Shown in pieces: positions 19,001 to 43,844 of a DNA stretch of 43,844 nucleotides. The notes beneath the pieces are model-generated. The model was not told where the DNA came from, ran no database searches, and saw only the letters and a program-made list of their open reading frames with translations. The position numbers and the translations under genes are program-made. Source of the DNA: a virus; IMG/VR virus record IMGVR_UViG_3300020205_000681, positions 1 through 43,844 of that record; one strand, 5' to 3'. Each line of letters begins with the position of its first letter. The first letter of the stretch is position 1.

Positions 19001-19547
19001 TGATTTTGGAATAGTTGTTGGTGTTTCTACAACTTCCGTTGGAGTTGCATCAACTGGAATTGTATTTGATCTATTTGTTCCAACGGATTCTTACTTGAGG
19101 AATACTAATATTACAGTTGGAGTTGCATCAACTGGAATTAGTGGAATAAAAACTGATTACTATTTTACAATATTTAATTCTAATATTGGATTTGGAGTAA
19201 CTTCACTGGACTCCACAAATTCAGTCGTTGGTGTTGGAACATCTTGCCTTGATAACGTTTATAAGGTTGCTTCAGTTTCCATAGCACAAACAAGTGTTCC
19301 TGGAGTTGGATTGACCAATGTTTCTAGAGTTACAGTCAAGGTTTTAAGTTATAATGGTTTAACTGGAACAGGATATAGTAACTTCTATGGTCAATTTAGT
19401 TGGGGTAAGATAAACACTACCACAAGAAAGAAACCTTTAAGTTTCAATTCTTATAATGATAATGGAGTTTCTGGATTGTCCACAAGTGCAGTTATTCAAA
19501 GAATAAATCCATTGAGATATATTGGTTATTCTACCAGTGTTCAATAA
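7059..19547 (+). CDS. Giant virion structural protein in gp7 position (baseplate/tail appendage)
   Basis: A 4162-residue protein between gp6 and gp8, where T4 has gp7 (1032 aa). The N-terminus (SNTRVKIGSIVQNQLPDFV...YPLVGEFLKEYY) is the conserved cyanophage opening of this gene. Visible modules: an (I)D.EII...RG domain at about 145-190; at least seven repeats of an H.Y.TGE.(I/V).Y...GGL...YYV.KV pattern (near 540, 663, 895, 1004, 1744, 1911, 3048); about a dozen GG.GY...P.(I/V) repeats (near 800-1210, 1500, 2150-2190, 3420-3610, 3908-3950); a YHYH-type domain (about 1304-1400: GWAYDGNPIYGPYGY...LDEHNGRF); two related EYG domains (about 2769-2985); and a conserved end with SNFYGQFSWGKI. No signal or membrane segment. 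Probably an extended baseplate wedge plus receptor- or glycan-binding projections. Homology to T4 gp7 itself is positional only. Confidence 0.85.
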   Translation: MSNTRVKIGSIVQNQLPDFVQEEYPLVGEFLKEYYNSLEGKSGTLDVLQNIDQYVKVDNLAESLFSRTVTVKPISPQTYFAVSGGFSVNDLIVYKNGSKLTKSVDYFTVQSTAVSLTQPAVNGDVLEFVVQSPSSTFLTSSVDFVDETINVASTYGFPETNGIIRIDSEIILYGGKTSTSFTNCTRGFSGITSYRADNKPDQLVFSTSGISTHSSNSSVENLSSLLLKEFLTKLKKQIIPGFENREFTNGLNQKTFIKQAKDYYKSKGTDDSYKILFKALFGEDVNVLKPRDFLLKPSDAKYRITRDLVVESISGDPMSMVNRTIYQDEDSFFDKAYGTITNVEKIQRSNKTYYVLSLDGDYDKDLTVDGTVFGNFSIHASTKLTTIALSNSQVLDVDSTIGFPPSGTLVYTVNGAEYSSSYFNANITQFTLANKTSVEIPKGTDVRINAFAYSNVGNNTVKVRITGVLSDVTYDQDTYLISKGDPLKSITLGSRATGELSNNWIFNLANKFNVKQIKGPNSSNLTLNLFSYEFITYDPHTFYLGDTINLIFSDGTNLNYKVVRVNNETSVSVEGPKINNLNLKYIAERAIIKPKFSNFSSLNQYTANVQNVYLKNEGNVYVAANCLPSYLDENIDIKSTDIVFSGIFGGETLDLSSGNPNNYHGLYTGDSITYIDTFNTSNSLGILSKSYYVQKIDDLKIKLSNSRSDLFNKKYVSISGTPTVTNNVFRKTKIQFLDFSSQNYIKNITTPVPTNNEDNAETPSGPVGVFINGVEAFSYKSEDKVYYGGIQQINVIDGGEDYDVINPPEISIYDVTGSSASAYVQVEGSLKRIDVIDGGFDYVEDPIITISGGNGNGAVAKPNLTSVRHKVSFNAIESAGFVNLTTNTIGFSSYHKFRDYEKVLYLTEGQTSVGGISTNAQYYVNVQNAYNVRLHKTLDDAVSGINTVDLTSYGVGTHILESFAPKRSIKSFSVLNGGTNYSNKKVSCTSSGINTASNTINIVNHGYQTGEVIKYTSTGSVIGGLSNNSSYYVVKVNDNQFKLTQVGIATTNKDFYFNTNQTVSLTSIGSSSHIFNYPEITVLVKGKIGVSTLTGQDFNAIVQPVFRGPITSIFVSNSGVGYGSSEIINYERQPKVVLGIGSQSQLSPIVNNGQIKQVLVLNGGSNYIAAPTINVLGIGTAAVLTPVISNGKIVDVKVVNGGVGFNTVGTALEVIPAGKNFKPECKIKSWTINKVEKNLNSNKILDDDGVIDTSSYTNNGLQYCHLYAPRKLRRTVFSIDYVNGKKVFIPDLNINGNREVTSNIHSPIIGWAYDGNPIYGPYGYSTPSGGNVREMIPGYISQVSSERPDPVSSLGQKIYPEGFFVDDYQFNNSGDLDEHNGRFCVTPEFPNGTYAYFATINNGSTETSGTFKNFKKPSFPYLIGNTFKSVPNQENYSRESTDQRIFSFETNDLLRNTTPYNLTSGNSQYDFVFNPIKVKEPSVKVKSVLLSGLSDIGITTGGSGYKIGDKVVFNNTNTSGSDAYAEVSYLKGKEINSISFASTFAQNVEFYPINATGKFIGFCSTPHSLINKDIISISGLNTSVSSFNEFFQVGVRSDTLSLSGPVGNSTATGIITYFNVNGSLEFPNIRENDVYHIENEKVKILSIDKLSSRIKVLRSYESTSGSAHTTSTVLYEKTRKFTFDNSKGVNIDYNLNREIYFNPAESVSLGTTTGIGVGSTLYFSNPGAGITNIFVPTKTIYIQSHKLETGTELIYSNNGGSSLFVSDDGVSSFQLSNNQSVYVAKVSDDLIGISTNKVGLGSTGSFVGINSSITTSTLFFTNIGSGTNHSFKTTYPNVLTGEFVKNTVTVSTASTHGLKSNDLVYLDVLPGITTTIFVKYNDKNRRLVVNPRSFDASDVNITNNIITIQNHGYQTGEKVIYNATVAIGGLTNDEIYYVVRFNKDSIKLSSTYYNAIKDIPEVIDFTSASSGSISLVNPRIFAISNQVINFDLSDSSLSYSKGSISYPAFDFKLYTNSDFTEEFNKAESSTKFDVVKTGTIGVTSTSSVTLTTENLDFDLYYNLVPVDLKDNLISKKEIIVDNDNISANNRLIVSQSSYYGFHNIVGVGQTTFTFNILDYPESLSYTKSDGNFQYYTDSKNTTGEIKAVEIKSAGRYYNTSPGITSVFSTTGRGAILDAFTNSIGKVNRVEIEDIGFDYPADSTLRPSSKLPQILKVNPLSIFKSVGVSSVGIDYSISPDLVVIDSYTDKVVNDVELRYNINSKTVEIIKNTEGIYNSKPTIIPINNSNGIPIKNITFNSTNKVVTVELDVNYSFGQIFPFNVGDRILVESVSVGTAVTSKGYNSKNYNYALFTLTSANPQYGGSGANIVYSLSNYLSNSESPGTFDVENSAGIVVPEKYFPIFDPILEKYKFFKGEKVDSNSSSGIVLNWNEYTEELKLSSGDTFEVNSVIKGETSKAKGSIITVDDFDAIYSVSASSVVKKGWQSESGFLNNQFQVTSDNNYYQNFSYSIKSKVDYETWNESIGNLNHTSGFKKFSDLVIESVDFGFTGITTSQDSGDFSGLADLITEIDLNCTYDFDLAREKTLNIDSEYFSKEIILNSVSLQDEFQSIGNRVLTIDDVSEQFSNLPSEQNYSNIDSFRLSDIRSRKYITYVRDKRFTGVRQIYLVSLMHDGLEGYLNQYARSETSVDLGSFDFSIFGTEGTLEFHPLSYLYSNYDISAISYGIRDTSSGIGSTSFGRLVDVRSSTTTVSAGTTARTNIVGIGSTYVASKVLVQFSSTNGTYYQFDELTLLNDGTEVSILEYGRLSNTSRVRYVGDGIGTYSAYISGSNVNLDFTPNVGLGTTYVINTLRVSIASTNVGISTASLSFGTSEIRSSYVSISSSPTPTQTGIATYSKEYGASYYIAVVEDTTNDECQVSEIVVVDDETEAYMTEFGIIETSSGLGTFGVGVSTITGTTLTFTPNPNISAEVKVYQNSMKVVSTGNTLETYDFTNANIDISYGGFEGIYNSIKRSFDLKHKQTPIFQRIFNASNPTIVNVANNSVRIPKHFYVTGEEIVYSEGNGNRIGIATTSIPGIGSTDLLPSSVFVVKVNDLDIRLAASAENALKAIPEPLTITSVGIGTTHSFTSKKQNTKCLVTIDNFIQSPIVSTSTTTTLAATAAFNIVDLTLSGISSIFGGDLLKINNEIVKVNTVGYGSTNALLVDRGWMGTNPENHSIGSTVTKIVGNYNIVDNTIHFVEAPYGNSPIGTITNRPDDRDYTGITTRSTFDGRVFLRSGIEDDTSESYSKNYVFDGLSEQFTGINTEFILKSSKSNITGISTGGMVLLINNVFQEPQRLGSVNIGGDYKLSENAGITTLGFTGTISSTSYDINTASVPRGGVIVSVASTQGFGYQPLISAGGTSIVSVAGTISAISIGYSGSGYRSSNSYEIVTETSSTISSGSTIIPVNNQNGVLNKLQYSSSNTLGIGSIFQNVSIVGVGATYVLIGSGSTSSQSVDSGTSVLISLNSPTVGLVDVGVKTASNGIVNYEFIGFTTISSGRISNNVTITNPGSGYTTSNPPTVVFDSPNSYDNIPLVYSSGSSGIGTQSTISIVVGQGSSIVDFEIKNLGYAYKVSEVLTIPTGGLVGIPTDSSKPFRKFELTIDQVFADLFSGWSVGDFQVLDKIESLFNGSRRNFPIKIDGVQTSIRARFGSNIDVQSVLLIFINDILQVPGSGYTFNGGSTFTFSEPPKEGDTCKILFYKGTGSVDVVFNDILETIKIGDSVRLNSDILSQKEDERLVTDIVSSDIIQTNPYNGYGLTTDETLSRPLIWCRQTEDAIISGQEVGKNREIYEPLIQPTTNIIQNVGSASTEIFVESVKIFFDDNRENSTTPFKTKIIITSQDVVVGASATAVVSAAGTISSLSLSNGGLGFTTNPTVVIARPVGVGTTSTATASITSGIVTSLTITNPGSGYTSSKPPQVLIEYPSLKSERIEDVSYEGDFGIVVGVSTTSVGVASTGIVFDLFVPTDSYLRNTNITVGVASTGISGIKTDYYFTIFNSNIGFGVTSLDSTNSVVGVGTSCLDNVYKVASVSIAQTSVPGVGLTNVSRVTVKVLSYNGLTGTGYSNFYGQFSWGKINTTTRKKPLSFNSYNDNGVSGLSTSAVIQRINPLRYIGYSTSVQ

Positions 19548-32409: not shown

Positions 32410-33411
32410 ATGTTTGAATATTTTTACAACGAAATTTTTAGAAAGACAATTGTGTCTTTTGGATCGTTATTTAATGATATTACTATAAAACATAAAGATA
32501 GTTCAGGTTCTAATGTTAGTGTAATAAAAGTTCCTTTAGCTTACGGTCCAACTCAAAAATTTCTAGCTAGATTAGAACAATCTCCAGATTTAAATAAACC
32601 AGTTCAAATAACATTACCAAGAATGTCTTTTGAACTGGTCGGTATATCTTATGATGGTTCTAGAAAATCTTCAACCGTTCAAACATTTCTATCCCCATCC
32701 GTTTCCGATAAAACTCAGCAGAGAAAAACATATCTTCCAGTACCATATAATCTTGATTTTGAACTGAGCATATTTACAAAGTTAAACGACGATATGCTCC
32801 AAATCATAGAGCAAATATTACCATACTTTCAACCAGCATACAATATTACGGTTGATTTAGTTTCTGAAATAGGAGAGAAAAGAGACGTACCAGTTATTCT
32901 GAATAGTGTGTCTATGAGTGATGACTATGAGGGTGATTTTTCTCAAAGAAGATCTTTGATTTACACTTTGAGATTTACTGCAAAAACGTACCTCTTTGGA
33001 CCAACATCTTCTGTTTCTACAGATATTATCAAAAAAGTTTCTATTGGTCTTATTTCTGGAGATTCTACAGCAACTCCAACAAGAGAAGTTGTTTATTCAA
33101 TAGAACCAAGAGCAACTAAAAATTATACTGGTAACGTTACAACAAATCTATCCAAAAATCTATCCGACACTGACACATTAGTTGAAGTTAATGATGCATC
33201 ATCTATCACAGTTAATACGTATATTTACGTAGATGAAGAAGAAATGTATGTTGATAAAAAAGCAGGTAACGTACTTACTGTTACAAGAGGCGCAGACAGT
33301 ACAACGGCATCCTCTCACGTCTCTGGGTCTGCCGTTTATAGAATAACTGCTGAAGACAATGCCTTGATTCAAACTGGAGATGACTTTGGATTTAGTGAGA
33401 ACATCTTATGA
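32410..33411 (+). CDS. gp15: Tail completion/sheath stabilizer gp15 with inserted domain
   Basis: A 333-residue protein (T4 gp15: 272). Conserved parts: MFEYFYNEIFRKTIVSFGSLFNDI, VPLAYGPTQKFLARL, LPRMSFELVGISYD and YLPVPYNLDFELSIFTKLNDDMLQIIEQILPYFQP. gp15 caps the tail tube and sheath and binds the neck. Residues about 237-318 hold an extra module (NDASSITVNTYIYVDEEEM...TVTRGADSTTASSHVSGSAVY) seen also in the giant protein and the 833-residue protein; the final LIQTGDDFGFSENIL looks like the native C-terminus, so the module is an insertion. Its stop overlaps the gp16 start (ATGA). Confidence 0.93.
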   Translation: MFEYFYNEIFRKTIVSFGSLFNDITIKHKDSSGSNVSVIKVPLAYGPTQKFLARLEQSPDLNKPVQITLPRMSFELVGISYDGSRKSSTVQTFLSPSVSDKTQQRKTYLPVPYNLDFELSIFTKLNDDMLQIIEQILPYFQPAYNITVDLVSEIGEKRDVPVILNSVSMSDDYEGDFSQRRSLIYTLRFTAKTYLFGPTSSVSTDIIKKVSIGLISGDSTATPTREVVYSIEPRATKNYTGNVTTNLSKNLSDTDTLVEVNDASSITVNTYIYVDEEEMYVDKKAGNVLTVTRGADSTTASSHVSGSAVYRITAEDNALIQTGDDFGFSENIL

Positions 33412-33845
33412 AAATGACAAAAAAATTTGATGAGATTAATAAAACTTTTAATGTTGATGCTGATATAGATATAGTTCCGGTTGAAACCGAAAAAGTTTCT
33501 GCTGAAATTGAAAAGATATCTTCTACTGCGGATGATGTTAAAAAGGATTATGAATATACGAGAGGAAATCTCTATTCGATTATAGAAAAAGGTCAAGAAG
33601 CAATCAATGGGATTTTAGAACTAGCACAAGAAAGTGAAATGCCAAGGGCATATGAAGTTGCTGGACAATTGATTAAAAACGTCGCAGATGCAACCGATAA
33701 GTTAATGGATTTGCAGAAGAAACTTAAAGATATTGAAGAAGAAAAAGTTGGTAAAAGTCCAACAACAGTCAATAATGCTTTATTTGTTGGATCTACTGCA
33801 GAGTTAGCTAAACTTTTAAAGAACAATGATTTAGACAAAAAATGA
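33408..33845 (+). CDS. gp16: Terminase small subunit gp16
   Basis: A 145-residue protein (T4 gp16: 164), helical, with the family block DYEYTRGNLYSIIEKGQEAINGILELAQESEMPRAYEVAGQLIKNVADATDKLMDLQKKLKDIEEEK (about 45-110), the coiled central domain that forms the oligomeric DNA-recognition ring. It regulates the gp17 motor and initiates packaging. Start overlaps the gp15 stop and its stop overlaps the next start, both as ATGA. Unlike T4, gp17 does not follow directly: three genes over 3.2 kb lie between. Confidence 0.93.
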   Translation: MKMTKKFDEINKTFNVDADIDIVPVETEKVSAEIEKISSTADDVKKDYEYTRGNLYSIIEKGQEAINGILELAQESEMPRAYEVAGQLIKNVADATDKLMDLQKKLKDIEEEKVGKSPTTVNNALFVGSTAELAKLLKNNDLDKK

Positions 33846-35092
33846 AAACGGAACTTCAAGAATTTTTTTCTCTAGTAGGTAAAGCAAAAAAAGAAAAAGA
33901 TGATGAATTCAAGTCTCTTGTCGGGGAAATCAATATTGATTCTATTTTTACCCAAGTAAAGGAGTCTGTAAAAGAAGAAAAGATAAAAAAAGAAAAAAAA
34001 CAAAAACAACTTGACCGTCAAGTTAAAGCTTTAGAGTCTTGGTTATATTCGGAACCAATAACAAAAGAAAATAAAAAAATTGATGTTGAAGATAATCAAA
34101 AAGAAGAAATAAATTTATTAGAAGTAAATCAATTAGATATAGTTCAAATATATGAAAATAATGAATCTGTTATTTTAGAAACTGAGATAGTAGAAGAATT
34201 TGAACCAAAAGTAGAAGATTTAGAAGAAAGTGATGATGCTATAGATAGTGCTCTTAAAATTTTAGAACAGTTAACGACTAAAAAAGAGGTTCAAGAAAAT
34301 ACTAATGATCCAGAAATAATCAAAATAAGAAGAGAACTGGAGTACCTGAGAAACGTCGTTAACGCTCAAGGTGGAGGTGGTGAAGTTCGTCTAGAATTTT
34401 TGGATGATATTGATAGAAACACTGCAAAAACAAACAATTATTATTTAAAATATAATTCTTTACTCGATAAGTGGGTTGGAGACCCAGGCAGTGGTGGTGT
34501 TGGAACACAGAATTTAAATCAAACTCTTGGATATGGTAACACTTCAGATATTGGAATGTCTGTTGGGGTTGTCACCGCAACTTATTTTGTAGGAGACGGA
34601 TCTTTATTAACCAATCTCCCAGGTAGCGGAAACAGTGGATATGCAAATACTGCAGGAATTGCTACTTATGCAGTAAATGCCGGAGTAAGTACCTATGCAG
34701 CATCAAGTGGCATTAGTACTAATGCGGTAACTGCCGGGTATGCAACGACATCTGGTATTTCAACAATTTCTCATGGACTGACCGGAACACCAAATATTGC
34801 TGTAGGTACATTGACAGCATCCTCTTTGGGTTTAGATGCGGGAACAATAATTTCTGGAATCGTAACTACTACAACAACATCAGAAACAGCAATTTCTTCG
34901 ATTAATTCAACAATTTTCAGATCTGCCACATATCAGATCCAAATTACCGAAGGAACTAACTATAATATGACAGTAGTTAATACTATTCACGATGGTTCCG
35001 CCACATACATATCAGAATATGGAACAATTAATCAACCAGTAGGAATAGCAACATTTTCGACGGACCTTAATTCTGGATTTCTGAGACTTTAG
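33842..35092 (+). CDS. Fibre-like virion protein with probable frameshift near the C-terminus
   Basis: The frame encodes 416 residues. Residues 1-175 form a charged coiled coil (FFSLVGKAKKEKDDEFKSLVGEINIDSIF..., KALESWLYSE); then IRRELEYLRNVVNAQGGGGEVRLEFLDDIDRNT, a GDGSLLTNLPG linker, about four 9-residue repeats (GIATYAVNAG, VSTYAASSG, ISTNAVTAG) and a C-terminal EYG domain. The frame stops at 35092 within that domain. In the -1 frame, 21 more residues follow (L-AYPSSSNATTFKVILTAIKL) to a TGA at 35152-35154, which overlaps the next ATG as ATGA, as with the two upstream gene pairs. One missing T in the TTT at 35088-35090, or programmed -1 frameshifting, would give a 437-residue product. Probably a fibre or whisker-like neck/tail protein. 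Confidence 0.85.
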   Translation: MKTELQEFFSLVGKAKKEKDDEFKSLVGEINIDSIFTQVKESVKEEKIKKEKKQKQLDRQVKALESWLYSEPITKENKKIDVEDNQKEEINLLEVNQLDIVQIYENNESVILETEIVEEFEPKVEDLEESDDAIDSALKILEQLTTKKEVQENTNDPEIIKIRRELEYLRNVVNAQGGGGEVRLEFLDDIDRNTAKTNNYYLKYNSLLDKWVGDPGSGGVGTQNLNQTLGYGNTSDIGMSVGVVTATYFVGDGSLLTNLPGSGNSGYANTAGIATYAVNAGVSTYAASSGISTNAVTAGYATTSGISTISHGLTGTPNIAVGTLTASSLGLDAGTIISGIVTTTTTSETAISSINSTIFRSATYQIQITEGTNYNMTVVNTIHDGSATYISEYGTINQPVGIATFSTDLNSGFLRL

Positions 35093-35150
35093 CATATCCA
35101 AGTTCTTCGAATGCAACGACTTTTAAAGTTATTCTTACTGCAATTAAATT

Positions 35151-35306
35151 ATGAAATCATTCAAAGAATTTCAAGAAGAGTGGACTAATAAATATAAAAA
35201 GAGTATTGATTGTTCAAATCCAAAAGGATTTTCTCAACGTGCCCATTGCGCGGCGAGGAGAAAAAGAGCAAAAGGTGAGCAGACTAAATCAAAACCAGTT
35301 GAGTAA
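35151..35306 (+). CDS. 51-residue basic protein with capsid-targeting-like N-terminus
   Basis: MKSFKEFQEEW at the start resembles the capsid-targeting sequence of T4 internal head proteins (MKTYQEFIAEA), and also the start of the gene at 43795 (MKSFKQFISES). The remainder, KKSIDCSNPKGFSQRAHCAARRKRAKG, is a Cys- and Lys/Arg-rich motif (CSNPKGFSQ.AHC) that I recall from many small phage proteins. The ATG overlaps the stop of the extended -1 frame of the upstream gene, and its own stop overlaps the next ATG (TAATG). A DNA-bound internal head protein is a plausible role, but the match to the T4 signal is by eye. Confidence 0.75.
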   Translation: MKSFKEFQEEWTNKYKKSIDCSNPKGFSQRAHCAARRKRAKGEQTKSKPVE

Positions 35307-37048
35307 TGCCCAAGTTCAAGTCACATAAAACAGTTGAGCAAATTGCTAAGAAGCATCGTCTTGATGTTTCTTTCATACAAAAGCAACTTGATATGGGGGA
35401 ACCTATTGAGCATGAACATACCAAAGATCATGACTTAGCAAAAGATATTGCTCTTCAGCATTTGGATGAAATTCCAGATTATTATACTCGTTTGAAAAAA
35501 ATGGAAGCAGATGCCAAAAAGCACCATAAAAAGTTTAAAGATGTAAGCGAAGAAGGTCTTCGTGATTGGTTTGGAAAATCTAGATCAAAAGATGGAAAAT
35601 CTGGATGGGTTAATGTTGTAACTGGCGGAACATGCGCAAGCGACGAACCAGGAGAAGGAGTTCCTAAATGCGTTTCTTCTTCCAAAAGATCCAGCATGAC
35701 ACCAGCAGAAAGACGTGCGGCAGCAAGAAGAAAAAAAGCAACAGATCCTGGACAGCAACAAAAAACAGGAGCTGCAAAACCAACTTATGTATCCACAGAT
35801 TCACCTAGAAAGAAAATGAAAGAAGAAATGGATGTACAAGAAGCAAAGGATAAACCAAGTAAAGGTAGTGGAAAAAAAGATGCTTGCTATCACAAAGTAA
35901 AGTCAAGATATGATGTTTGGCCAAGTGCATATGCTTCTGGAGCACTAGTTAAGTGTCGTAAAGTTGGTGCAGCAAACTGGGGAACTAAATCAGAAGAGAT
36001 GATGCAAGAGGAAGAAAGATATTGTCCATTATGTGACAAGAGAGAAACTAGATCTCAATGTTCTTACGGCGAAAAGGCATGGGATAAAGTTTCTGTTAAA
36101 GATGAAGAATACTCAATGGCAAGGTCAGAATTTAAAACTATTGAAGATGCAGTAAAGAGACTTAAGGCAAAAGTTGGCAAAGGTGAAGGTGATTTGGAAG
36201 CATGGGTTCAATCAAAAATAACAAAAGCAGCAGATTACATTGATACCGCAGCGGATTATATTGCAAGCGGAGAAATGGAAGAGCAAAGATTGGTCGATAA
36301 AATTATGGATGAAATGAAGTGTTGGCCAGGATATAAAAAGAAAGGAACTCAAAAGTTATTTGGCAAAACTTATAATCGTTGCGTAAAAGAAGAGGATGTA
36401 ACTATTGAAGATGCTAATGGAAATACTTTTGCCGAGATTGTTGATTTGATTAAACCGGAACCGATTAAAGGATTTAAATCTCAAGTACAAGAAGCAACAA
36501 GACTTCAAGCGCAAACTGGTAACGTTATTGCAGTTACCCTTTCTTGGAAAGGAAAATATTATGCTCTTAAGATGTTTTTCCCTCAAGTAAAAACACCAAC
36601 TAAAAAGGAAATAAACGATGAACTCCAAAAAGTTTATCCCGGATCTATAGTTTTATATCACACTGTTTCACAAATTCAACCAGGTCAACCACTTATCCAA
36701 GTATTTGGTCCACAAGGTGGCAGTTCTGGCAGTTTGGGTCCAAGTAGAGCATATGTAAAAACATACGGAGAACAGGTTGAGTTTGATGAAGACTGGCAAT
36801 CAGTAAATAGAAAAGATAAAATCGATGGATTAAGTCAAAAAGCAGTTGATACTTATCGTCGTGAGAATCCAGGTTCAAAACTTCAAACTGCAGTTACTGA
36901 AAAAAATCCAGATGGTAAAAGAGCAAAAAGACGTGCTTCATTTTGCCGTAGAATGAAAGGTATGAAATCAAAACTGACTTCAGCAGAAACTGCTAGAGAT
37001 CCAGATAGCAACATTAACAAAGCACTTCGTCGTTGGAACTGTAACTAA
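35306..37048 (+). CDS. Multi-domain Cys/Lys-rich virion-associated protein
   Basis: A 580-residue protein made of small domains that also occur singly in other phages. In order: a DUF5661-like helical domain (1-75, HTVEQIAKKH-type, EHTKDHDLAKDIALQHL); GLRDWFGKSRSKDGKSGWVNV...GTCASDEPGEGVPKCVSS...MTPAERRAA (about 83-145, DUF6321-like, name from memory); DACYHKVKSRYDVWPSAYASGALVKC (about 192-217); CPLCDKRETRSQC (240-252), a possible zinc site; AWVQSKITKAADYIDTAADYI (about 299-319); CWPGYKKKGTQKLFGKTYNRC (339-359); a TGNVIAVTLSWKGKYYALKMFF segment (about 405-426); and a basic C-terminus (GSKLQTAVTEK...RASFCRRM...ALRRWNC). No enzyme motif seen. Placed just before gp17; its stop is 15 bases from the gp17 start. 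Confidence 0.75.
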   Translation: MPKFKSHKTVEQIAKKHRLDVSFIQKQLDMGEPIEHEHTKDHDLAKDIALQHLDEIPDYYTRLKKMEADAKKHHKKFKDVSEEGLRDWFGKSRSKDGKSGWVNVVTGGTCASDEPGEGVPKCVSSSKRSSMTPAERRAAARRKKATDPGQQQKTGAAKPTYVSTDSPRKKMKEEMDVQEAKDKPSKGSGKKDACYHKVKSRYDVWPSAYASGALVKCRKVGAANWGTKSEEMMQEEERYCPLCDKRETRSQCSYGEKAWDKVSVKDEEYSMARSEFKTIEDAVKRLKAKVGKGEGDLEAWVQSKITKAADYIDTAADYIASGEMEEQRLVDKIMDEMKCWPGYKKKGTQKLFGKTYNRCVKEEDVTIEDANGNTFAEIVDLIKPEPIKGFKSQVQEATRLQAQTGNVIAVTLSWKGKYYALKMFFPQVKTPTKKEINDELQKVYPGSIVLYHTVSQIQPGQPLIQVFGPQGGSSGSLGPSRAYVKTYGEQVEFDEDWQSVNRKDKIDGLSQKAVDTYRRENPGSKLQTAVTEKNPDGKRAKRRASFCRRMKGMKSKLTSAETARDPDSNINKALRRWNCN

Positions 37049-37063
37049 TAAGTAGGTTTTATT

Positions 37064-38710
37064 ATGTCTGATGTTTATCTTGGTAATCCGCTTTTAAAAA
37101 AAGCAAATACCCCCATTGAATTTACTCAAGAACAAATTATAGAATTTGTTAAGTGTAAAGATGATCCGGTTTATTTTGCAAATAATTATGTAAAGATTGT
37201 GACCCTGGATCATGGTCTACAAACTTTTAAACCATATCATTTTCAAGAGAAGTTAATCAATAATTTCCACAATAACAGATTTAATATCTGTAAGATGCCT
37301 CGTCAGACTGGTAAGTCTACTACTGTGGTATCTTTTTTGCTACATTATGCAGTATTTAATGATAACGTAAATATTGGCATTCTTGCAAACAAAGCAGCAA
37401 CTGCAAGGGAACTTCTTGATAGATTACAAACTGCGTATGAGAATCTACCAAAATGGATGCAACAGGGCATTATATCTTGGAACAAAGGTTCTCTAGAACT
37501 TGAGAATGGTTCAAAGATTTTAGCAGCATCTACCTCCGCATCTGCTGTCCGAGGAATGTCTTTTAACATTCTGTTTCTGGACGAATTTGCGTTTGTTCCA
37601 AATCACATTGCAGATTCATTTTTTGCGTCGGTTTATCCTACGATTACTTCAGGTAAACAAACCAAAGTTATCATAGTTTCCACACCTCACGGTATGAATC
37701 ATTTCTACCGTATGTGGCACGATGCGGAGAAAGGTAAGAATGAATATGTATTTACAGATGTTCATTGGTCAGAGGTTCCAGGTAGAGATGAGGAGTGGAA
37801 AAAACAAACTATTGCAAACACGAGTGATCAACAGTTCAAAGTTGAGTTTGAGTGCGAATTCCTTGGTTCTGTTGATACTCTTATTGCACCATCTAAACTC
37901 AGAACCCTCGTGTATGATGCCCCTAAGACCCGTAGCGCGGGTTTAGATGTTTATGTGGACCCAGAGGAGAATCACGACTATCTAATCACTGTAGACGTTG
38001 CTAGAGGTGTAGGAAACGATTACTCAGCATTTGCTGTTGTAGACATTACAGAGTTTCCACACAAGGTAGTTGCAAAATATAGAAATAATGAAATAAAACC
38101 AATGCTGTTTCCAAGTGTAATTCACGAAACTGCAACAGCATATAATGACGCTTACATATTGTGTGAGGTAAATGATGTTGGCGACCAGGTTGCAAGTATT
38201 CTCCAATATGATCTTGAGTATAATAATCTTTTAATGTGCTCTATGAGAGGTAGGGCAGGTCAAATAGTGGGACAAGGTTTTTCTGGAAAGAAAACCCAAC
38301 TTGGAGTAAAGATGTCCAAGACCGTGAAAAAGGTTGGATGTCTTAACCTCAAGACAATGATTGAAGAAAATAAACTTTTCTTGAATGATTATGAAATAAT
38401 TGCAGAACTTACAACATTCATCCAAAAACATAATTCATTTGAGGCGGAAGAGGGGTGTAATGATGATTTGGCAATGTGTTTGGTGATTTATGCTTGGTTG
38501 GTCGCACAAGATTATTTTAAGGAACTTACAGATCAAGATGTAAGGAAAAGGTTATATGAGGAGCAAAAAAATCAGATTGAACAGGATATGTCTCCATTTG
38601 GATTTATTTCCGATGGATTGGATAATAATGCAAGTTTTGTTGATAATGAAGGTGATAGATGGCATGTTGATGAATATGGAGATAGAGCATATATGTGGGA
38701 ATATATGTGA
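37064..38710 (+). CDS. gp17: Terminase large subunit gp17
   Basis: A 548-residue protein (T4 gp17: 610), the ATP-driven packaging motor and headful nuclease. Walker A-type P79-RQTGKS-T86 (the T4-like RQxGK form), Walker B I169-LFLDEF with D173 and catalytic E174, and the coupling segment VIIVSTPHGMNHFYRMWHDAEKG. The C-terminal nuclease shows ITVDVARGVGNDYSAFAVVD with D311 as first metal ligand, E368 in ILCEVND, and D467-D468 near the end (GCNDDLAM), matching the three-acid RNase-H-like site of T4 gp17. All expected catalytic residues are present. The stop overlaps the next start (TGATG). Confidence 0.97.
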   Translation: MSDVYLGNPLLKKANTPIEFTQEQIIEFVKCKDDPVYFANNYVKIVTLDHGLQTFKPYHFQEKLINNFHNNRFNICKMPRQTGKSTTVVSFLLHYAVFNDNVNIGILANKAATARELLDRLQTAYENLPKWMQQGIISWNKGSLELENGSKILAASTSASAVRGMSFNILFLDEFAFVPNHIADSFFASVYPTITSGKQTKVIIVSTPHGMNHFYRMWHDAEKGKNEYVFTDVHWSEVPGRDEEWKKQTIANTSDQQFKVEFECEFLGSVDTLIAPSKLRTLVYDAPKTRSAGLDVYVDPEENHDYLITVDVARGVGNDYSAFAVVDITEFPHKVVAKYRNNEIKPMLFPSVIHETATAYNDAYILCEVNDVGDQVASILQYDLEYNNLLMCSMRGRAGQIVGQGFSGKKTQLGVKMSKTVKKVGCLNLKTMIEENKLFLNDYEIIAELTTFIQKHNSFEAEEGCNDDLAMCLVIYAWLVAQDYFKELTDQDVRKRLYEEQKNQIEQDMSPFGFISDGLDNNASFVDNEGDRWHVDEYGDRAYMWEYM

Positions 38711-38940
38711 TGGACATAGATAAGCAATTAAAACTTGGACATCTTCTGTTGACAGATAGAAAATGTAGATCTTGTGGAGAATTAAAAAATCTAGTAGATG
38801 AGTTTTATAGAACAAGAAAGAATAGAGGTCCAGTTGCTTCTTCTTATTCTTATGAATGTAAAGATTGTACTATAAAAAGAATTTTGAAGGATAGAAAAAA
38901 AGAAAGCGATAAATCTCACTGGGAATATCCAGATTGGTAG
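38710..38940 (+). CDS. Small zinc-finger protein (HNH-associated type)
   Basis: A 76-residue protein starting at the ATG that overlaps the gp17 stop. It holds two CXXC pairs: CRSCGELKNLVDEFYRTRKN...SYECKDCTIKRILKDRKK. This CxxC...FY....R.........C..C pattern is the zinc-binding module often found at the N-terminus of phage HNH-type endonucleases. No H-N-H catalytic half follows, so it may be a remnant or a stand-alone DNA- or RNA-binding finger. It lies between the terminase and the tail sheath, with a weak hairpin downstream (38941-38964). A longer start at 38695 would overlap gp17 by 16 bases. Confidence 0.8.
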   Translation: MDIDKQLKLGHLLLTDRKCRSCGELKNLVDEFYRTRKNRGPVASSYSYECKDCTIKRILKDRKKESDKSHWEYPDW

Positions 38941-43636: not shown

Positions 43637-43798
43637 ATGGATGATCTTTTAGATATGATTGCTGCTGACGAATCACCTTCACAGATTAGTGATAAGATTA
43701 AAGAACTTTTATTTACAAAATCTGCCGAAAAAATTGACGATTTTAGACCAGCAGTAGCAAACTCAATGTTTAATAGCGAAACAGAAGAGGAAGAATGA
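43637..43798 (+). CDS. gp67: Prohead core protein, gp67-like
   Basis: A 53-residue protein, MDDLLDMIAADESPSQISDKIKELLFTKSAEKIDDFRPAVANSMFNSETEEEE. Size, location immediately after gp20, a helical body and an acidic tail match gp67 of T4 (prohead internal scaffold, cleaved during maturation), and cyanophages carry a short version here. The sequence match to T4 is weak, so the call rests mainly on position and composition. Its stop overlaps the next start (ATGA). Confidence 0.75.
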   Translation: MDDLLDMIAADESPSQISDKIKELLFTKSAEKIDDFRPAVANSMFNSETEEEE

Positions 43799-43844
43799 AA
43801 TCCTTTAAGCAGTTCATCTCAGAGTCTGTAAATATTTCCGGAGA
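43795..43844 (+). CDS. Start of a prohead core/internal protein gene (cut by window end)
   Basis: Only MKSFKQFISESVNISG and part of the next codon are visible before the window ends. The ATG overlaps the upstream stop (ATGA). The opening resembles T4 capsid-targeting signals (MKTYQEFIAEA) and the gene at 35151; a gp21-type protease site would fit after ISE. Position suggests a gp68-like or other core scaffold protein, or a protein processed by gp21. The identity needs the following sequence. Confidence 0.6.
   Translation, partial: MKSFKQFISESVNISG

Follow-up and report, generated by a model that had tools for sequence, protein, structure and literature searches.

A 43,844-base virus record (IMGVR_UViG_3300020205_000681; hereafter the window), a fragment of a T4-like cyanophage genome with partial similarity to S-SCSM1, Bellamy, S-SM2 and other phages, encodes a 51-residue basic protein (35151-35306, forward strand) that is most likely directed to the capsid by a non-canonical relative of the T4 capsid-targeting sequence (CTS) and probably remains uncut. 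We assign a probability of about 55% to this reading of the gene, as one encoding a small basic head-cargo protein that is targeted by its CTS-like N-terminus without being cleaved. Judged from its sequence, the protein would belong with the T4 internal proteins (IPs) by its mode of action and not as their homolog. A short helix bearing F4 and F7 would bind the scaffold core, as the T4 CTS does, and the protein would therefore be enclosed during prohead assembly and stay uncut in the head. Its body, which belongs to a set of interchangeable basic Cys modules shared with the neighboring mosaic protein, would then sit on the packaged DNA and possibly enter the host with it.

A conserved short gene between the terminase subunits

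The open reading frame at 35151-35306 translates as MKSFKEFQEEWTNKYKKSIDCSNPKGFSQRAHCAARRKRAKGEQTKSKPVE and contains 10 Lys, 4 Arg and 2 Cys, its 14 Lys/Arg standing against six Asp/Glu; the basic 51-residue protein of the original prediction was thus placed exactly. This 51-codon frame is a real gene, with orthologs in Bellamy and in 80 IMG/VR loci. The latter are the best, by full-length similarity, of at least 587 relatives recovered in a scan of IMG/VR, and all 80 encode proteins of 51 residues with the N-terminal consensus MKTFKQFQE[E/D]W, of which the MKSFKE start in the window is an outlier variant. Among these best 80 of at least 587 relatives, positions 1, 2, 4, 7, 9 and 11 are invariant, F4 and F7 being kept in 80 of 80; position 8 is Gln in 75, Arg in three and Lys in two, and position 10 is Glu in 42 and Asp in 38. 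The original prediction depended on conservation of the N-terminal motif among homologs, and this conservation is borne out.

Three segments can be distinguished in the protein, namely the CTS-like N-terminus (residues 1-10, MKSFKEFQEE; 35151-35180), a mobile Cys module (residues 11-33, WTNKYKKSIDCSNPKGFSQRAHC; 35181-35249) recognized by its copies in large cyanophage proteins, and a basic C-terminal tail (residues 34-51; 35250-35303). Across 74 distinct genes pN/pS is 0.083 for codons 2-10, 0.071 for codons 11-33 and 0.194 for the tail, which is the least constrained part; the gene is under purifying selection, and strongly so in residues 2-10. Searches of Pfam and PHROG recovered no match to the protein, and those of PDB sequences no meaningful one. 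AlphaFold2 predicted helices at residues 4-15 and 27-40 with a mean pLDDT of 74.5, a modest confidence that makes the model too weak for a fold search; the predicted helix 4-15 is compatible with an N-terminal helix bearing F4 and F7 but proves nothing.

On the forward strand the gene follows the terminase small subunit gp16 (33408-33845, identified by its C-terminus and synteny) and a tail-fiber-like gene (33842-35092, phrog_30742), which is missing at this position in most relatives. Its stop codon is overlapped by the start of a gene for a 580-residue mosaic protein (35306-37048) with DUF5661, DUF6321 and further Cys modules detected by Pfam and PHROG. Downstream of this lie the terminase large subunit gp17 (37064-38710, profile match), an endonuclease-VII-like gene, and the tail sheath, tail tube and portal genes. 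The 51-residue protein corresponds directly to gp122 of Bellamy, encoded in the same genomic place, SynMITS9220M01 possesses a 39-residue form, and S-SM2 has a 142-residue protein with the corresponding segment at its C-terminal end. In 41 of 51 relatives tested an upstream ORF overlaps the start of the gene, and among those of the 41 that were listed this ORF has a gp16-type C-terminus. Two further observations concern the flanking genes. The endonuclease-VII-like gene (38695-38940, 81 residues, phrog_4723), situated between gp17 and the sheath gene, is kept in related cyanophages. The tail-fiber-like ORF (33842-35150 region) ends at 35092, 59 nt before the 51-residue gene, whereas its homologs overlap the ATG of that gene; another frame in the window carries the C-terminus of these homologs (TTFKVILTAIKL) up to a TGA overlapping the ATG, and the fiber gene therefore seems to be frame-shifted near its end, either in reality or by assembly.

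The N-terminus and the T4 capsid-targeting sequence

Truncation and suppressor tests on T4 IPIII assigned residues 4 and 7 of the CTS to targeting and residues 8 and 10 to processing by gp21, which cleaves at L/I-x-E; Asp at position 10 stops processing while still allowing targeting (PMC9026906). In the sequences that we compared, IPI begins with MKTFKEFTST and both IPII and IPIII with MKTYQEFIAE. MKSFKEFQEE is identical to the latter at five of ten positions, in keeping with the resemblance first proposed, and to the MKTFKEF of IPI at six of the first seven. The 51-residue protein also shares with the T4 IPs a small body of basic net charge and an aromatic residue at each of positions 4 and 7. 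The invariance of these two residues in 80 of the best 80 relatives supports the N-terminus as a conserved CTS-like element. Each T4 CTS, however, is terminated by a gp21 site (I-A-E; in IPI, I-T-E at residue 19), and the 51-residue family has none at residues 8-10 or shortly after; in the protein from the window no I/L-x-E is found anywhere. The bodies are likewise without detectable likeness, Pfam, PHROG and PDB-sequence searches recovering no homology to IPI, IPII or IPIII. In T4 itself, a 54-residue ORF beginning with MKTFKEFIKEDMVAGDSGG (position 19110, minus strand; locus L130, 1501) is a further CTS-like candidate besides IPI-III.

These differences bear on whether the protein, once targeted, could be processed by the prohead protease in the manner of the canonical internal proteins. 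The cut would fall either behind E9, placing F7 at P3 (F-Q-E), or behind E10, and the product would start with [E/D]WxNKYKKS or WxNKYKKS, respectively. Such cleavage would be in line with the invariance of E9 and W11 in the best 80 of at least 587 relatives, with the [VIM]xE that precedes the same Trp in embedded copies of the module (see below) as if it were a cleavage boundary, and with the occurrence of Val, Met and Phe besides Ile and Leu at the P3 place of cyanophage CTS-like N-termini. Against it, the T4 L/I-x-E site (PMC9026906) is absent, residue 8 is Gln, Arg or Lys in all of the best 80, and residue 10 is the processing-blocking but targeting-compatible Asp in 38 of them. As residue 8 is non-hydrophobic and residue 10 often Asp, cleavage at the T4 position is improbable, and we regard a cleaved product as distinctly unlikely; strict gp21 cleavage, which had also been envisaged, is rejected by residues 8 and 10. 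The capsid-targeting interpretation is thus partly supported, by positions 4 and 7 and by the presence of other motif carriers in virions, but fails with respect to the canonical gp21 site.

A comparison of MKSFK-type N-termini across cyanophages was made by scanning DNA for M-K-[S/T..]-[F/Y/L..]-x-x-F-x-x-E, with the reversed pattern as control. The pattern has 35 matches in 18 cyanophage records, its reverse has none, and by this measure the resemblance of the N-terminus to the T4 CTS exceeds chance. Sorted by what follows residue 12, these carriers represent at least 11 families, a lower bound since some families were joined by single linkage through low-complexity bodies, and nearly all carriers other than the 51-residue family have Ile, Leu, Val, Met or Phe at position 8. 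One of the proteins with such an N-terminus is a 67-residue protein of S-SRM01 (locus L104, 1501-1704; MKSFQEFLFE) with a CxxC...C...C pattern. This pattern is similar to that of a high-potential iron-sulfur protein, and the protein might possibly be a head-cargo redox protein. In the open literature searched we found no paper tying capsid-targeting sequences to cyanophage proteins, nor any on the CTS-like N-termini described here or on DUF5661/DUF6321.

Motif carriers in cyanophage virions

The virion proteome of S-CREM2 comprises 52 proteins detected by mass spectrometry (MS; PMC10665884 Table 3), although its authors consider carry-over possible in the CsCl preparation (PMC10665884). We applied the full motif,.{2,5}[FYLW]..F[ILVMF].[ED], to the translated N-termini of all 219 annotated S-CREM2 genes and obtained five matches, against 0.45 expected by permutation: the SAM hydrolase gp6, gp13, the kinase gp14, gp136 and the cytidylyltransferase gp154. 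Each of the five was MS-detected in virions (Fisher p = 6.5e-4), an enrichment that is to be read as a strong lead and not as a blind test because some of the sequences were already known when the motif was broadened. Like the 51-residue gene, gp136 is situated between gp16 and gp17. The S-SCSM1 genome record flags as MS-detected the NMNAT gp91 (MKSFLQFLKE) and gp31 (MPFKNFLWDE), in which the motif is perhaps incidental, but not the carrier gp30 (S-SCSM1_30, MKTFKQFMSE). In the part of S-SZBM1 examined, the cytidylyltransferase 140 (MRFRQFIIE) is virion-detected, while the carrier S-SZBM1_191 (MKSFKSFLSE) and the near-match S-SZBM1_192 (MKTFKQYITE) are not.

The N-terminus of these virion-associated enzymes (NMNAT/cytidylyltransferase, SAM hydrolase and kinase), MK[ST]FxxF[LI]xE, follows the same pattern as that of the 51-residue protein. 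The enzymes differ from the latter in being large, and a hydrophobic residue 8, present in the proven T4-type cargo motif and in every virion-detected carrier, is missing from the 51-residue family; with Gln at this position, the protein from the window has only the targeting half of the full motif. A Lys/Arg-rich peptide of 51 residues could easily be missed by tryptic MS. Separately, the virion-detected S-CREM2 gp12, annotated as Cas9/Csn1 (locus L140, 7704-10313, minus strand), carries, at about residues 19-26 of the annotated sequence, a CTS-like FASFMAEA and then a DGHG segment resembling that of NMNAT proteins; the true start may lie downstream of the annotated one.

The same data speak to a further alternative, under which the N-terminus is a convergent Lys-rich amphipathic start with no role in the head, the protein acting in the infected cell. 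The motif is indeed short, but neither the absence of matches to the reversed pattern nor the excess over permutation in S-CREM2, with every match found in virions, is what such convergence predicts, and we consider it improbable.

A mobile Cys module shared with mosaic proteins

The body of the 51-residue protein, WSxKYKKSIDCxNPKGFSQ[KR]AHC, is also found within large mosaic proteins of P-TIM68, S-PRM1, S-CAM9, S-SCSM2R, S-SRM01 and DSL-LC02, and on these sequence matches it is a mobile module. The Cys/Arg/Lys-rich body had originally been seen as a peptide suited to DNA; it is no known dedicated DNA-binding peptide and is instead common to mosaic proteins of the neighboring gene's kind. In several phages it is shared by the DUF5661/DUF6321 mosaic proteins of the gp16-gp17 interval (phrog_727, phrog_3477), which are about 200-1400 residues long, combine many modules, and usually display WSxKYKKSIDC..HC after [VIM]xE[GDES] and not after MKTFKQF. 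The fetched loci contained 147 distinct copies of the module. MK[ST]F..F directly precedes 71 of these, in stand-alone genes (two with longer upstream frames); the remaining copies either form internal parts of longer ORFs, in most cases behind [VIM]xE[GDES] just ahead of the module's Trp, or start such ORFs as MGW. Six module copies also turned up on contigs of marine or aquatic MAGs in a genome-contig scan in which viral origin was assumed (loci L144-L149; bins of Euryarchaeota, Puniceispirillum, Porticoccaceae, Pelagibacter and Rickettsiales), and these are probably phage contigs inside the bins.

This distribution raises the alternative that the 51-residue protein is a detached portion of the mosaic protein with no targeting signal of its own, FxxFxE being just the module's opening helix, and that it acts with the mosaic protein, e.g. 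in packaging functions beside gp16 and gp17. Besides the presence of the module in mosaic proteins, in most relatives the gene overlaps both neighbors, gp16 on its upstream and the mosaic gene on its downstream side, and six fused copies retain K.F..F.E internally, which counts against a purely N-terminal signal since such a signal needs no internal copy. Most embedded copies, however, lack F..F, which is therefore not part of the module fold, and the same N-terminus is borne by many unrelated genes, several of which encode virion cargo. We accordingly hold a split-off piece to be unlikely, if less so than the cleaved or convergent versions.

The gene at 43795-43844 (forward strand), which starts with MKSFKQFISESVNISG and runs past the end of the window, resembles the 51-residue gene in its start, as had been noted. 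Its earlier designation as a prohead-core gene (gp67/gp68) is rejected; full-length relatives of about 105 residues match phrog_1742, a family of unknown function, and are similar to mosaic-protein residues 401-449 (BLASTP E 2e-6). Like the 51-residue protein, the phrog_1742 proteins combine a CTS-like N-terminus with a domain also found in the mosaic protein, but they are longer, have an unrelated body and possess an I/L/M-S-E site. As both domains recur in mosaic proteins, both MKSFK genes of the window consist of a CTS-like N-terminus joined to a mosaic-type domain.

Module boundaries were examined in 77 mosaic ORFs for [VILMF]xE within nine residues upstream of eight module types. Six of the eight show it in 62-100% of distinct upstream sequences, compared with 13-16% of random windows and 23-44% of shuffled ones, though related sequences are not independent and there are fewer separate events than these percentages suggest; two of the eight do not show it to this extent. 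S-SCSM1_29, a homolog of the 580-residue mosaic protein, is annotated as a virion protein, and S-CREM2 gp137 and gp160, both with such modules, are virion-detected; the S-SZBM1 mosaic protein 194 is absent from the detected list. The boundary sites and virion annotations are compatible with the hypothesis of a polyprotein cut by the prohead protease. In S-SZBM1_194 (locus L143, 33253-35376, minus strand) an internal TYREFIAEG, nearly a T4 CTS, lies ahead of a domain that another contig (L121) encodes as a separate gene with its own CTS-like start; the domain is also similar to part of the virion protein S-CREM2 gp6.

A broader proposition, which we advance tentatively, is that one N-terminal code loads varied cyanophage head cargo (NAD enzymes, a kinase, SAM hydrolase and small basic peptides). 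Under it the mosaic proteins would be polyproteins of DUF5661/DUF6321 basic Cys modules, cut by the prohead protease at [VILMF]xE into internal peptides, and the 51-residue protein a free tagged module.

Cyanophage virion proteomes repeatedly show enzymes with no explained route of entry into the particle, and a short N-terminal code derived from T4 genetics singles out such proteins in S-CREM2. The tag of the 51-residue protein may be part of a general head-loading code of cyanophages; should this code prove valid, sequence would allow candidate head cargo to be listed. The 51-residue family would then offer a natural example of a protein that is targeted but not cleaved, and its kinship with the mosaic proteins hints at a way for internal peptides to shift between free and fused forms.
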